A DNA stretch of 64,000 bases from Synechococcus sp. MVIR-18-1 (lineage in GTDB: Bacteria > Cyanobacteriota > Cyanobacteriia > PCC-6307 > Cyanobiaceae). Below the pieces are notes generated by a model that was not told the origin of the DNA, searched no databases, and saw only the letters and a program-made list of their open reading frames with translations. Location: positions 1 through 64,000 of the forward strand of contig NZ_CP047942.1 of the NCBI RefSeq assembly GCF_014279835.1, in the 5' to 3' direction. Shown in pieces: positions 57,285 through 63,420 of this stretch (its first letter is position 1; each line of letters opens with the position of its first letter). Made by a program: the position numbers and the translations under genes.

Positions 57285-59159
57285 CTAGTCATTGTCGAGT
57301 TCCACATCCAAGATCTGACCATTAAAAAAGTCGGCAAAGCGCTTCACCTTTTCATCCATGATCGAAGGCGGACTCACCTCCGCTGAAACGACGCTGGGCG
57401 GTTTCGAGCTTGCGGGATTTGAACTTGTTGTGGGCGCTGCCACCGGAGTGATGGGTGGTGTTTGCACATCAGCTATCACCACTGGCGATGGAGGTGCTGG
57501 CTTCGGTTGCGACGACGTCGGTAGAGACGGCGTTGGATCTGTGCTGGGGGTGGATGGTGTTGATTTCGGTGCGGGCGCGGCGGCTGGCGTTGAGGCCATC
57601 GGGGCTGCGCCACCGTGGTTTTCCAAAACCAGTTGTCGGTTCCCGCCGATGGAACGTTTGATGGCTTGCTCCAGCAAGCTGGCCCGGCTTTGCACCATCC
57701 CCATCCAGTTTCCAGCCACCTGCACCACAGCGCGATGGGGATCGAGTCGCACCAGTTGCGCCTGCTGTGACAGGAGCATGCGGGTGGAGGGGAGCTCGAG
57801 GCTGGCGAGAATTTGTTGCCACAGTTCAGGCAGGTTGTTGCTGTCAGGTGCAGGCTCTTGCGCTGATGGTGGCGTTGGAGCGGGTTCTGAGCTGACGACC
57901 GGTTGTGGACTCGTGTTGGGAAGGCTGACGGCTGGTGCTGGTGTTTCAGCGACTGGGGCTGGACCTGGAGCTGTGCTGGTGACCGCCGGTGTGCTGATGG
58001 CTGGTGCGCTGCTCAATGGCCTGCTGGCCGGTGCTGCAGAACTGGGTTTTGCAACGGCGATCTCGGCGTCAGCAAGGAGGCCAAGCAGCAATACTTCAAG
58101 CCACAACCTTGGTTGGACGCTTTGACGCAGTTGCTGTTCGCTGCCCTTCAGTTGTGCCTGCCAGTGCAGAAGTCGCTGACGGCCAAGGCGTTGCGCGAGT
58201 GGAGGCAACTGCTCTCGAAATTGTGGTGAGACCCCGGTGAGCTCTGGACGGTCCGGTGCAACGGCCATCAACACCAGGTCGCGCAAAATACCTGCCAAAC
58301 CCTGCAGTACAGCACCGGGATCCCGGCCACGATCCAGCAGGCGTCGGCTCGCCTCGAGCAGCGTGAGCGGTTCTCCCTCTGCAAGCGCTTCAGCAAGATT
58401 GAGAAGTTCTTGCTCTGGAACCGCTCCTAACAGGTCCCAGACCGCATCCGCTTTGATCGGTCCCGGCAGGAGGCTGAGCTGATCGAGAAGGCTTTCCGCA
58501 TCGCGCAACCCTCCTTGGGCGCGCTGGGCCACCACATGCAGCGCCTCTGGTTGGATTGGAATCGACTCCTGCTCGGCAATCCAGGCCAAGTGCGCGTTCA
58601 AAGCCTCGAGTGGAATGCGCCTGAAGTCAAAGCGCTGGCAGCGGCTCAGGATCGTGGGCAGCACCCGTTGGGGATCGGTCGTGGCTAACACGAACACCAC
58701 CTGAGGCGGTGGCTCTTCCAGGGTTTTGAGCAGCGCGTTAAACGCGGCTGTGGAGAGCATGTGGCACTCATCCACCACATACACCTTCCAGCGCGCCTGC
58801 ACAGGGGCAAACCGGGAGCGTTCGATTAGATCGCGAATGTTGTCGACACCGGTGTTGGAGGCGGCATCGATCTCGATGACATCGAGTGCGGTGCCTCGCG
58901 CAATCGTGGTGCAGAGCTCACAAGTCCCGCAGGGCTGGGGCGTTGGGCCGTCGTGGCTGAGGCAATTGAGTGAGCGCGCCAGGATCCTGGCGCTGGAGGT
59001 TTTGCCGGTTCCGCGCGGGCCGCTGAATAGATAGGCCGGGGCAATGCGTCCGGAGGTGAGGGCATGGCCGAGTGTGGCGGCAATCGCCTCCTGACCCACC
59101 AGCTGATCAAACCGTTGAGGACGGTATTTGTGATGCAGCGGCTGATAGGCCTGACTCAT
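57285..59159 (-). CDS. dnaX: DNA polymerase III subunits gamma and tau
   Basis: The clamp-loader ATPase. The 624-residue protein has Walker A FSGPRGTGKTSSARILARSL, a zinc motif (CLSHDGPTPQPCGTCELC), the DEAC-like VDECHMLS and the SRC motif SRCQRFDFRRI. After about residue 365 a long Pro/Ala/Ser-rich stretch (tau-like linker) reaches to about 430 and again from about 520 to 595, with a folded part between and a short acidic end. Intact gene length means tau; a shorter gamma by frameshifting cannot be judged here. It is last in the tig-clpP-clpX run. Confidence 0.95.
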   Translation of the reverse strand: MSQAYQPLHHKYRPQRFDQLVGQEAIAATLGHALTSGRIAPAYLFSGPRGTGKTSSARILARSLNCLSHDGPTPQPCGTCELCTTIARGTALDVIEIDAASNTGVDNIRDLIERSRFAPVQARWKVYVVDECHMLSTAAFNALLKTLEEPPPQVVFVLATTDPQRVLPTILSRCQRFDFRRIPLEALNAHLAWIAEQESIPIQPEALHVVAQRAQGGLRDAESLLDQLSLLPGPIKADAVWDLLGAVPEQELLNLAEALAEGEPLTLLEASRRLLDRGRDPGAVLQGLAGILRDLVLMAVAPDRPELTGVSPQFREQLPPLAQRLGRQRLLHWQAQLKGSEQQLRQSVQPRLWLEVLLLGLLADAEIAVAKPSSAAPASRPLSSAPAISTPAVTSTAPGPAPVAETPAPAVSLPNTSPQPVVSSEPAPTPPSAQEPAPDSNNLPELWQQILASLELPSTRMLLSQQAQLVRLDPHRAVVQVAGNWMGMVQSRASLLEQAIKRSIGGNRQLVLENHGGAAPMASTPAAAPAPKSTPSTPSTDPTPSLPTSSQPKPAPPSPVVIADVQTPPITPVAAPTTSSNPASSKPPSVVSAEVSPPSIMDEKVKRFADFFNGQILDVELDND

Positions 59160-59182: not shown

Positions 59183-59878
59183 CTACTCAGCTTGATCGCT
59201 GATGGAACGCCCATGTTGCTCGTTGAGCAAATCGCTGATGCGCTGCTCGAGTTCTTCCACGGCTGCGAGTTCATCGGCGAGGCTTTGGCCCGCTTTGAGT
59301 AGTTTTCTGCCCTGTCCTCCGTAGCGATCGCTGGCGCCATTGTTTGGACCGCCGCGGATCCAGCCCTCTGCCTGTTCAAGCGTGCCTTCCAGTTGGTCGA
59401 GCAAGCTCTGGCGGAGTTTTTTTAGCTGCAAAAGGCCGCGGCGTGCGCGATCTCGGGATTGTTCATTCACCAAACCCCGCTTGAGGAGCAATCGCAGCCC
59501 TGTGAGAAGCGCTGCAGGCATCAGCTGGCCGATGGCCAAAGCGCCGAGGCTGGTGGTGTGCAGGAAGCTCTCCACTTGGCCGCTCTGATGCCGGCCGGTT
59601 TTGCACCAGCTGGCGAAATGTTCGCAGTTGTTGAACAGCAGGTTGTAGCGCTGTTCGCCGATGCGGCTCATCGCTCGCCGCAGCGTGACCCCTGCTGGAG
59701 ATGGACGGTCATGTTCGACAACGCTGGTCTCTAACCCGCGTTTGAACTCCTCCAACGGACTGCGCAGAATCTCTCGTCCTTCGAGGTAATGGGCGATGGT
59801 GCCATCGCCCAGATCGATGCCGTGATGCAGAAACAGACCGTGCTGACGGGGGACTGAAAGATGGTCAGCGGCGGCCAT
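59183..59878 (-). CDS. LRAT-domain (NlpC/P60-superfamily) protein
   Basis: A 231-residue protein with a lecithin-retinol acyltransferase-like domain in the first 110 residues. His19 (HHGIDLGDGTIAHY), His30 and the nucleophile Cys85 (LLFNNCEHFASWCKTG) form the expected triad. A hydrophobic segment (LGALAIGQLMPAALLTGLRL, about 110-130) could be a membrane contact, and the rest is helical, charged coiled coil. Such proteins are thiol acyltransferases or lipases in other organisms; the bacterial substrate is unknown. It starts 12 bases after clpX and ends 23 bases before dnaX. Confidence 0.82.
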   Translation of the reverse strand: MAAADHLSVPRQHGLFLHHGIDLGDGTIAHYLEGREILRSPLEEFKRGLETSVVEHDRPSPAGVTLRRAMSRIGEQRYNLLFNNCEHFASWCKTGRHQSGQVESFLHTTSLGALAIGQLMPAALLTGLRLLLKRGLVNEQSRDRARRGLLQLKKLRQSLLDQLEGTLEQAEGWIRGGPNNGASDRYGGQGRKLLKAGQSLADELAAVEELEQRISDLLNEQHGRSISDQAE

Positions 59879-59890
59879 TCAGGGTGACGC

Positions 59891-61246
59891 TCAAGCCGAT
59901 TCCTTGTGCTGCTTGGTGTCGGGGAGGGGCAGCACTTTGCCACCGGTGTGTTCTTCCACCATGGCTTTGGTGATCGTGAAGGATGTCACGGTCTGATCGG
60001 AGGGCAGCTCATACATCAGATCAAGCATCAACTCCTCCACGATTCCGCGCAGGGCTCGAGCGCCGGTTTTGCGGCGATGCGCTTCTTTGGCAATCGCCTC
60101 AACGGCCTGGGCTTCGAAGTCCAGTTGCACGTTGTCCATGCTTAAGAGCGTGCTGAATTGCTTCACCAAGGCGTCGCGTGGCTCGGTGAGGATCGATTCG
60201 AGTGCGCTCTCGTCTAAGGGCTCGAGCACGGCGCTCACAGGCATGCGCCCAATGAACTCTGGGATGAGGCCGTACTTGACCAGATCATCGGGTTCGAGAT
60301 GACGGAGCACCTGAGCGGCTTTGATATCGCGGGTGGCGCGGTTGCGGCCCCGGCCATCGTTCGGCACAAAGCCGATGGCATTGCGGCCCATGCGCTTCTG
60401 CACCACGTCATCCAGGCCGACGAAGGCTCCACCGCAAATGAACAGGATTTGGCTCGTATCGATCTGGATGCAGTCCTGATAGGGATGCTTGCGGCCGCCC
60501 TGAGGAGGCACGTTGGCCACGGTGCCCTCCAGCATTTTTAGAAGGGCCTGTTGAACGCCTTCCCCAGACACGTCACGCGTGATCGACGGGTTTTCGCTTT
60601 TGCGCGCAATTTTGTCGATTTCGTCGATGTAAATGATGCCCCGCTGGGCCTGCTCCACATCCATATCGGCTTTCTGGAGCAGCCTCAACAGGATGTTTTC
60701 AACGTCTTCTCCGACATAGCCAGCCTCCGTGAGGGTGGTGGCATCGGCAACGGCGAAGGGCACATCGAGCATTTCCGCCAGGGTCTGAGCCAGCAGTGTT
60801 TTGCCGCAGCCCGTTGGACCAATCAGCAGAATGTTGCTCTTGTGCAGGCGGGTGGCCGTTTGGGCGGCTTCTCCTTGGCCATCACCCTGCCATGCCAGGC
60901 GTTTGTAGTGGTTGTAAACGGCAACGGACATCACCTTCTTGGCCGCTTCTTGACCAACGACTTGTTCGTCTAAAAAGCCCTTGATTTCGTGAGGTTTGGG
61001 AATTGTGGCCAGCGTTGGAGCGGGCTTGCTGGTTTTGCGTGTGCCACCTACAGCAGTTTTTTTGGAGGGTTCGGCGCCGTGACGTGGATTGCCTTGAGCG
61101 TCGATCAGCTCTTCGTCAAGGATCTCGTTGCAGAGATCGATGCACTCATCACAGATGTAGACACCAGGCCCGGCGATCAGTTTGCGCACTTGCTCCTGGG
61201 ACTTTCCGCAGAAAGAGCACTTCAGATGGGCGTCAAATTTGGCCAT
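59891..61246 (-). CDS. clpX: ATP-dependent Clp protease ATPase subunit ClpX
   Basis: The unfoldase partner of ClpP. The 451-residue protein has the N-terminal zinc domain ([26 protein letters not shown]), Walker [19 protein letters not shown], Walker [14 protein letters not shown], the pore loop [14 protein letters not shown], and the sensor regions [14 protein letters not shown] and [14 protein letters not shown]. It follows clpP by 88 bases and shares its reading direction. Confidence 0.97.
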
Positions 61247-61334: not shown

Positions 61335-62024
61335 TCAGCCCCCCGTAATGATTCCTTCGCCTCCGAGGTTGTCCACAACGCGATCGATCAATCCGTATTC
61401 AACCGCTTCTGCTGGAGAAAGAAAGTAGTCCCGCTCGGTGTCTTCGGTGATTTTGGCGAGCGGCTGGCCGGTATGTTCCGCCATCAGACCGTTCAGGGTT
61501 TCCTTAAGAAATAAAATCTCCTGAGCCATGATTTCAATGTCCACGGCCTGACCTTGGGCCCCACCAAGAGGTTGGTGAATCATGATCCGGGCGTTGGGGA
61601 GAGCTAAGCGTTTGCCTTTGCAGCCTCCGCTCAGCAAAAAAGCTCCCATTGAGGCAGCGAGGCCGTAGCAGATGGTGACGACGTCTGGAGCCACCTGCTG
61701 CATGGTGTCGTAGATCGCCAAACCTGCCGTAATCGAGCCACCCGGTGAATTGATGTACACCTGAATGTCTTTTTCAGGGTCTTCCGCTTCTAGAAAAAGA
61801 AGTTGAGCAACCAGGGCATCCGCCACTTGGTCGTTCACGTCGGTGCCGAGAAAGATGATTCTCTCCCGGAGCAATCGGGAATAGATATCAAAGGAGCGTT
61901 CACCCCGCCCGGACTGCTCCACCACCGTGGGAACCCCTGGAGAGGCAAACGGGGTGTGAGCCGAGACGGGAAGAGTTCCTCGCCAGCGGTTTTCGATTGG
62001 GTGGTGGCTGCGGGCGTTGATCAC
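61335..62024 (-). CDS. clpP: ATP-dependent Clp protease proteolytic subunit ClpP
   Basis: The serine peptidase of the Clp complex. The 229-residue protein has the handle [20 protein letters not shown], catalytic Ser125 in [11 protein letters not shown] and His150 in [14 protein letters not shown], with Asp in the later helix. The first about 30 residues ([15 protein letters not shown]...) form a possible propeptide. Start GTG. It lies 46 bases after tig. Cyanobacteria have several ClpP/R subunits; the tig-clpP-clpX context marks this as the ClpX-associated one (ClpP2 type). Confidence 0.95.
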
Positions 62025-62070: not shown

Positions 62071-63420
62071 TCAGGCATCGGTGGCGCTCGGCTTGTCTTC
62101 CTCAGGTGCCTTTTCGCTCACGGTGCTGTTTTCTTCCAGCCAGCCGAGCAGTTTTTCTTGGAGGAGATCCTCGATCACCGCTTGACGCAGACGGTTGGGG
62201 TCGATGTCACGCTCACCAGAGAGTTGGGTTGTGACCTCCTTCACTTTGGCGTCAATCTCTGGGTCCTCAAGCTTGAGGCTTTCTGCTTCCGCAAGGGCCG
62301 AGAGGGCAAGACTGCGGCGCAAGCGCTCCTCCGCTTCCGGGCGTGAGGTCTCCATCAAGTTGCGGACGAGCTCAGGAGTGAACAGGGATTTCACATCCAT
62401 CCCCTGTTGCGAGAATTGAGCTGCGGTTTGCTCCACCAGGTTGCGCACTTCCTGTTGAACCAAGGTTTCGGGGAGTTCCACCTCAAGTTGCTCAACGAGA
62501 GCAGCGAGCAGGGCATCGCGTCGATTGCTGGTGGTACGGCGTTCCGCGTCATCCTTCAAACGCTTTTCAAGGTCAGAGCGGAGCTCTGCCAACGTTTCCT
62601 GTTCGCTGGCTTGTTTGGCGAAGTCGTCATCCAAGTCGGGAAGTTCTCTGGTTTTGAGATCCTTCAGTTCGATCTCGAAGCTGGCCTTGCGTCCGCGTGC
62701 ATCTTCCTTGGGGTAGTCGTCAGGAAAATTGCAGGCCACGGTTTTGCTGTCACCAACGGCCATGCCCACAACGCCTTCAATGAAGCCGGGGATCATGCGG
62801 CCATGCTCGAGGTCCACGTCCATCGACTCTGCGCTGCCGCCTTCGATCTCGCTGCCGTCGTCGCTGTAGGTGCCTTTAAAACCAACCACAGCGATGTCAC
62901 CTTCTGTAGCCTTGCGGCCTTCCACCGGAACCACGGTGGCGAGCTGACGACGGGACTGCTCGAGCATGTCGTCCACTTTTGCGGCATCGAAGCTGACGCT
63001 CTCCGCTTCTGCTTTCAGCCCCTTGGTGGTTTTCAGGGTTGGGGTAGGAGCCACATCGGCTTCAAAGGTGACGGAAAGGGGCTTTCCGGGTTCAAAGGCC
63101 TCCAGCAAGGCTTCGTAGCCGCCATCCACTTCGGGTTGGCCTAGGGCTTCAATCGTTTCCTGCTTGATGGTGTCCCGCCAGATGCCATCCACGAGGTTCT
63201 CGAGTGCGGTTGCGCGAATGCGCAGTCCGCCAAGTTGTTGCACGAGAACGGAGCGAGGCACCTTGCCTTTGCGGAATCCAGGCAGATTCACGCTGCGGCT
63301 GAGCTGTGAGATCGCCGCTTCGTAACTGGCTTGGCTGCGTTCGGCTGGAATCGCTACTTCAACGGCCAGACGGCTGCCGGGGCGGGCTTTGGAGGTGACC
63401 TTCAGGCTGGCGGCACTCAT
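62071..63420 (-). CDS. tig: Trigger factor
   Basis: The ribosome-bound chaperone and peptidyl-prolyl isomerase at the nascent-chain exit. The 449-residue protein has the ribosome-binding signature [20 protein letters not shown], an FKBP-like middle ([35 protein letters not shown]) and a helical C-terminal cradle (about 265-420). The acidic tail closes it. It heads the tig-clpP-clpX cluster and is divergent from asd over 174 bases. Confidence 0.96.

Follow-up and report, generated by a model that had tools for sequence, protein, structure and literature searches.

The 231-residue protein encoded between clpX and dnaX in the window, the 64,000-nucleotide stretch of Synechococcus sp. MVIR-18-1 DNA analyzed here, is identified by sequence comparison as an LRAT-domain protein with an intact catalytic triad, maintained under purifying selection, whose C-terminal tail descends from a fusion of the LRAT domain to a PspA/Vipp1-type module. 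The explanation that is given somewhat better than even confidence is that the protein is a membrane-held, PLAAT-like thiol lipase or acyltransferase, carrying a Vipp1-derived hairpin and editing lipids at stressed membranes, and that the position between clpX and dnaX is simply inherited. The sequence features are reported below as found; the activity, the substrate, and the membrane recruitment of the protein are what we infer.

Gene and Locus

The gene was delineated as an open reading frame with an ATG start, and its neighbors were identified using NCBIfam models. The features of the locus are as follows.

59183 to 59878, minus strand: LRAT-domain gene, 231 residues, present in 197 of 300 genomes of the window's family
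59891 to 61246, minus strand: clpX, upstream neighbor (TIGR00382)
57285 to 59159, minus strand: dnaX, downstream neighbor (NF011510)
61335 to 62024, minus strand: clpP, same gene run (TIGR00493)
62071 to 63420, minus strand: tig, same gene run (TIGR00115)

The order on the one strand is tig-clpP-clpX-LRAT-dnaX. The LRAT gene is separated by 12 bases from the clpX stop at 59891 and by 23 bases from the dnaX start at 59159. The first-pass annotation had described a 231-residue LRAT reading frame at these distances, continuing the tig-clpP-clpX run and followed by dnaX, and the coordinates, the Pfam match, and the NCBIfam matches all agree with that description. No NCBIfam model was matched by the 231-residue protein itself, and a single match at E ≤ 0.001 was obtained in the search of the source genome.

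The genomes with the LRAT gene are distributed over 44 of the 59 genera of the window's family, and the order clpX-LRAT-dnaX, the conservation of which was checked as the first-pass annotation had proposed, appears in all 62 family loci that were fetched. In 61 of these loci the genes are collinear on one strand, with median gaps of 10 bases to clpX and 23 bases to dnaX; the remaining locus, L066, has the same order and is absent from the gap and collinearity counts. For 13 pairs of near relatives, dN/dS values of 0.04–0.19 were obtained for the whole protein and 0.03–0.29 for the tail, and selection on the gene is, by this measure, purifying. Because the reading frame is found in 197 of the 300 family genomes and dN/dS is approximately 0.04–0.19, it is not a chance open reading frame, and the same count shows that the gene is not confined to this strain.

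The gene is absent from 103 genomes of the family, 32 of which were sampled, and a usable dnaX locus was lacking for 6 of these. In all 26 usable loci clpX lies directly beside dnaX, with gaps ranging from −11 to 200 bases (median of 57.5), and many of the genomes that lack the gene are 1.6–1.9 Mb. Since clpX adjoins dnaX in these loci and so many of the genomes are of this size, the absence is read as a clean loss in the course of Prochlorococcus-type streamlining (organism names presumed). Strict co-occurrence of Vipp1 and the LRAT gene was not found across the family, as Vipp1 occurs in some genomes that have no LRAT gene. Genus g18 genomes of 1.6–1.7 Mb (G017, G067, and G095 are examples) gave no PF04012 match of any kind and seem, from this search, to lack both Vipp1 and the LRAT gene.

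Catalytic Domain

The catalytic domain and the residues assigned to the triad are located as follows.

59588 to 59872, minus strand: LRAT (PF04970) catalytic domain, residues 3–97
59825 to 59827, minus strand: His18, probable catalytic histidine
59789 to 59791, minus strand: His30, third residue of the triad
59624 to 59626, minus strand: Cys85 of the NNCEHF motif, nucleophile

The PF04970 match to residues 3–97 scores 76.6 bits (cut-off, 24.3), and in two alignments, of 65 and 79 rows, every member matches LRAT at E ≤ 1e-3. Weak Pfam matches to Peptidase_C97 appear below the cut-off. In the passages of a review that bear on this domain (PMC10102619), the LRAT clade is placed within the NlpC/P60 thiol-hydrolase superfamily, and a Cys-His-His triad is described in which the cysteine belongs to an NCEHFV motif. 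The cysteine of that motif corresponds to Cys85.

The triad had been assigned previously as His19, His30, and Cys85. When the protein was aligned with human HRASLS2 using HMMER, it was His18 that fell opposite the PLAAT histidine, with His19 opposite a tryptophan. All four residues are invariant in the first set of 85 distinct proteins, and in the 79 relatives from outside the window's family the His18, His30, and Cys85 columns are invariant and the His19 column is only nearly so; the protein L175 reads HYG, with a tyrosine in the His19 column. Because His18 aligns with the PLAAT histidine and is invariant in the 79 relatives, and His19 is not, the triad is reassigned on these alignments as His18, His30, and Cys85. 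The earlier description of an intact triad thus holds, with His30 and Cys85 correctly placed and His19 replaced by His18. The catalytic residues do not vary freely in homologues. The Pfam match, the invariant triad, and the presence of the gene in two-thirds of the family genomes uphold the designation as an intact, conserved LRAT-type thiol enzyme, and the product is probably active.

Predicted Structure

Models of the window protein and of a Microcystis relative (L154) were obtained using AlphaFold2, with mean pLDDT values of 76.1 and 82.8, respectively. The window model consists of the LRAT domain followed by long helices at residues 139–175 and 188–230. In the L154 model the corresponding helices span residues 138–182 and 186–228, and the pLDDT is 92–98 over residues 161–210. 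When the LRAT part was compared with PLAAT crystal structures using Foldseek, E values of 3.5e-05 to 1.4e-04 were obtained (4.4e-05 for 4fa0). Comparison with the crystal structures of PLAAT2–4 using VIA-align gave Z scores of 12.3–13.8; those of the window model are approximately 12–13 (13.3 for 4dot), with an rmsd of 2.0–2.3 over 92–94 residues at approximately 22–26% identity. The window protein is thus predicted to have the LRAT/PLAAT fold.

The resemblance to the PLAAT/HRASLS enzymes (PLAAT2–4, H-REV107; PF04970) includes the fold, the His/His/Cys triad, the NCEHF motif, and, as a possible membrane contact, a hydrophobic segment after the catalytic domain. The two differ in what follows: the tail of PLAAT is a single membrane span, whereas the bacterial protein has a two-helix hairpin that descends from Vipp1/PspA. 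PLAAT3 is the nearest well-studied analogue. The structure that matches the Microcystis model best is an LRAT fold in chain E7 of the Euglena gracilis respiratory supercomplex (PDB 8iuf; Z of 14.1), and a search of the literature on this chain returned nothing of use.

The hairpins gave less specific results. The L154 hairpin matches Vipp1 and ESCRT-III chains in Foldseek with a probability of 1.00, but with E values of at least 0.013, and for the window hairpin no specific Vipp1 match was found (4whe, E of 2.0 and probability of 0.25). Matches of the hairpin in VIA-align (Z of approximately 9–12) were rejected as evidence of homology, as similar scores are reached by chemoreceptors, CorA, and further helical proteins.

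The C-Terminal Tail of Outgroup Proteins

A stretch of the L074 protein, which we took to be typical of PspA/Vipp1, served as the lead and was then tested using profiles. A Pfam search of nine outgroup LRAT proteins detected PspA_IM30 in six, of which four exceed the 33.9-bit cut-off and two fall slightly short of it; the other three have Gly/Ala-rich tails. Of 15 outgroup genomes that bear the LRAT gene, 12 gave a match at this gene in a genome-wide search with PF04012, above 33.9 bits in eight and below it in four (26.1 to 33.3), and the three genomes with no match at the LRAT gene have a Gly/Ala-rich tail. In L091, L092, and L093 (families f7 and f11) this long hydrophobic tail is found instead of the PspA module, and these three proteins were excluded from outgroup alignments A1 and A3 and from the tail profile.

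Rows at least 95% alike were thinned before alignments A2 and A3 were made; from the 85 outgroup rows that remained, A2 took 13 and A3 took 79. Every one of the 79 aligned outgroup relatives gave matches to the two families, LRAT and PspA_IM30, at E ≤ 1e-3. Records of Microcystis, Planktothrix, Arthrospira, Trichodesmium, Okeania, and Leptolyngbya are among the rows of the wider outgroup alignment. With the whole-protein profile, 38 of the 291 phylum genomes were matched outside the family at near full length and 19 family genomes were matched at the LRAT gene, mostly over its front part, both among the matches listed.

The profile of 107 outgroup tails, from which duplicates had been removed, was compared with 2,994 ORFs and matched 42 in PspA/Vipp1 loci (30 distinct, since overlapping loci contribute repeats) and one other weak ORF. 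An hhalign probability of 98.2% with an E value of 6e-14 was obtained for the outgroup tails against PspA/Vipp1. The matches of the whole-protein profile to the PDB are led by Vipp1 structures (3e-10, over Vipp1 residues 26–126), and HRASLS2 is matched at 5e-9. Convergence upon a coiled-coil composition, which would make the protein an unfused LRAT enzyme whose tail happens to be helical, is extremely improbable. Both the tail and PspA are indeed made of long helices and the tail of the window protein gives no PspA match of its own, but a position-specific motif is found in 88 of the 107 outgroup tails (compared with 0 of 62 family tails), the reciprocal profile matches are limited to PspA/Vipp1 save for the one weak ORF, and the hhalign and PDB results above point the same way. 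The LRAT protein of other cyanobacteria is accordingly classified, from these profile matches, as an LRAT-PspA/IM30 fusion.

The module shares with PspA/IM30/Vipp1 (PF04012; bacterial ESCRT-III relatives) the hairpin of helix 1 and helix 2 and the W-A-AL-E-LA-AL-K block. It differs in being partial: approximately 100 residues, matching Vipp1 residues 26–126, are present without the first and last helices, and they are joined to an enzyme. The first helix of Vipp1, which is missing from the fused module, is presumably the membrane-binding helix.

An architecture of this kind has been mentioned before. In the text consulted of Ravi et al. 2024 (PMC11237479), a PspA_IM30-NlpC/P60 fusion (AFZ52345.1) is listed as belonging to less than 2% of PspA homologues, and it is predicted to modify phosphatidylcholine and to alter membrane composition. 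The LRAT-PspA protein is taken to be this architecture; the likeness is one of domain make-up, and the description in that text amounts to one sentence, one accession, and the term "NlpC/P60 hydrolase". The same portion of PMC11237479 makes no mention of the broad cyanobacterial spread, the copies between clpX and dnaX, the eroded tail of the Synechococcus-type family, or the losses. A literature search on bacterial or cyanobacterial LRAT and LRAT-PspA proteins returned no study of the gene among the matches listed, and PMC11237479 alone was relevant.

The C-Terminal Tail in the Window's Family

Two features follow the catalytic domain of the window protein.

59483 to 59539, minus strand: hydrophobic segment, residues 114–132, possible membrane contact (Kyte-Doolittle)
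59189 to 59464, minus strand: two-helix C-terminal hairpin, residues 139–230, diverged PspA/Vipp1-type module (AlphaFold2 and hhalign)

The C-terminal part of the family proteins aligns with that of the outgroup proteins in hhalign with a probability of 94.6% and an E value of 7e-8. Aligned directly with PspA, the family tail gave a probability of 0.4%, and the window protein has no match to PF04012 in Pfam. Direct homology of the window's own tail to PspA was thus sought with Pfam, hhalign, and Foldseek and found by none of the three. Its descent from PspA is deduced through a chain formed by the outgroup relatives and by L064 and L069, two family members in the clpX-dnaX slot that have kept the PspA signal (1.6e-8 and 4.6e-7, respectively). 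PF04012 is matched in 15 of the 65 rows of one alignment, 13 of the 65 being outgroup rows. The tail of the window's family is, on this chain of comparisons, a PspA/Vipp1-type module that has diverged and lost its signature. Because the module is eroded in the source genome, its origin was invisible to the first-pass annotation.

The hydrophobic segment noted in that annotation is real. As a membrane span it is only borderline, with a mean Kyte-Doolittle value of 1.64, and part of it falls where the model has low confidence. A 19-residue mean of at least 1.6 is reached in 44 of 62 family tails versus 7 of 110 others.

Gene Placement outside the Family

A search of the phylum sample with the window protein gave matches in 70 of 291 genomes. 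In the 20 outgroup loci L074–L093, clpX is found near the LRAT gene in one, L074, and in 80 further loci neither clpX nor dnaX appears in the fetched flanks (at most 4 kb per side). As a neighbor of the LRAT gene, dnaX is seen in the window's family alone. Outside the family clpP is near the LRAT gene in L074, L090, L186, and L212 only; in the last three the gene is clpP-like and no more than a few kb away. A Vipp1-like gene is found near the LRAT gene in L084. An all-against-all ORF comparison of the 20 outgroup loci revealed hardly any common neighbor except among close relatives.

The order in L074 is tig-clpP-clpX, an alpha/beta hydrolase (L074:8537-9379, minus strand; PF00561, 95.5 bits), and the LRAT gene, which places two possible lipid-acting enzymes after clpX in this sister lineage. 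In a tree of the LRAT domains of 40 proteins, midpoint-rooted for drawing only, all 18 family rows cluster together (100/99), and the row nearest to them is L074 (97/91). Because this nearest row has clpX plus one gene before the LRAT gene, the move of the gene close to clpX probably predates the window's family. The address between clpX and dnaX itself is lineage-specific.

A role tied to proteostasis or replication was considered in view of this address. Linkage to clp genes was looked for across the range of the gene: clpX is near it in all 62 family loci, in one of the 20 outgroup loci, and in none of the 80 further loci within the fetched flanks, and family genomes that lack the LRAT gene keep clpX and dnaX together. 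A Clp- or replication-linked role was therefore rejected, as the linkage ends at the family and its sister lineage; the suggested role in protein acylation received no support.

In a related reading the protein would be a thiol hydrolase that acts on proteins (a peptidase, deacylase, or isopeptidase), possibly on Clp substrates or acylated proteins, and its position after clpX would reflect a shared function. The NlpC/P60 affiliation given in the review passages (PMC10102619), the weak Peptidase_C97 matches, the tight spacing after clpX throughout the family, and the L074 gene order would suit such an enzyme. This reading is nevertheless quite improbable: nearly all other cyanobacterial loci examined have no clpX nearby, clpX-dnaX is retained where the LRAT gene is absent, the best structural neighbors are lipid enzymes, and the ancestral tail comes from a membrane protein family.

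Proposed Function

In the favored explanation, Cys85 would form a thioester with an acyl chain drawn from a membrane lipid, with His18 acting as the base and His30 supporting His18. The acyl chain would then be passed to water, as in a phospholipase, or to another lipid, as in a transacylase. The Vipp1-derived hairpin would hold the enzyme on the thylakoid or plasma membrane, aided in the Synechococcus-type family by the hydrophobic segment, and lipids would be edited where the membrane is stressed or remodeled. The latter setting is considered probable because the relatives carry the tail of a membrane-protection family, Vipp1/PspA. The gene is probably co-transcribed with clpX and would have no working partnership with ClpX or DnaX, its position being an inherited address. 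Membrane quality control, which had been put forward as speculation, thereby gains independent backing from the tail of the relatives, evidence that the first-pass annotation did not have. Counting against the favored explanation are the missing PF04012 match of the window protein, the direct comparison of its family's tail with PspA (0.4%), the missing specific Vipp1 match of its hairpin, the VIA-align scores of the hairpin, which unrelated helical bundles also reach, and the missing first helix of Vipp1. LRAT-fold enzymes may also act on non-lipid substrates.

A membrane-bound housekeeping enzyme that recycles lyso-lipids or handles free fatty acids, with no link to stress and with the tail as a handle for membrane attachment or oligomerization, is judged somewhat unlikely. 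Its stability under purifying selection in many lineages, the alpha/beta hydrolase that separates the LRAT gene from clpX in the L074 operon, and the loss of the PspA signature in a family that kept the enzyme all agree with such a role. However, the conserved block that the tail has in common with Vipp1/PspA suggests that most lineages have a specific interaction surface there, and the dispensability of the gene in small genomes is a better fit to an accessory role than to core turnover.

A further proposal is considered unlikely: in most of the cyanobacteria with this protein, the hairpin would co-assemble the LRAT enzyme with the ESCRT-III-like rings and rods of Vipp1/PspA, so that the repair polymer brings a lipid editor to the site of damage, and the Synechococcus-type family would have been rewired to a hydrophobic anchor independent of the polymer. 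Were this true, bacteria would have an equivalent of the PLAAT lipases known to collect on damaged organelles. PLAAT3 is described, in the portion of PMC12017856 consulted, as a lipase that relocates to such organelles by a mechanism called unclear, and the LRAT-PspA fusion may offer a simple system for testing such recruitment. In many cyanobacterial lineages a family of predicted lipid-acting enzymes is tied by covalent fusion to the Vipp1/PspA membrane-protection family. A testable function is thereby provided for a gene that most genomes of the window's family carry in the slot between clpX and dnaX and that small-genome relatives have dropped cleanly.

Viral and Decayed Copies

LRAT/NC-domain genes are also present on some viral contigs (L234–L244) and in two phage records (Acinetobacter phage MD-2021a). 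A phage origin of the gene was considered and rejected, as the matches consist of the two Acinetobacter records in the phage collection and the 11 viral contigs, and every match falls on the LRAT part.

Fragments of the LRAT gene containing stops were detected in two genomes of genus g98 (2.8–3.1 Mb), at G441:C1:2340750-2340926 and G537:C1:2474996-2475530. The copy in G437, a 4.8 Mb relative of these genomes, is intact, and the fragments may be a further instance of decay accompanying a reduction of the genome.
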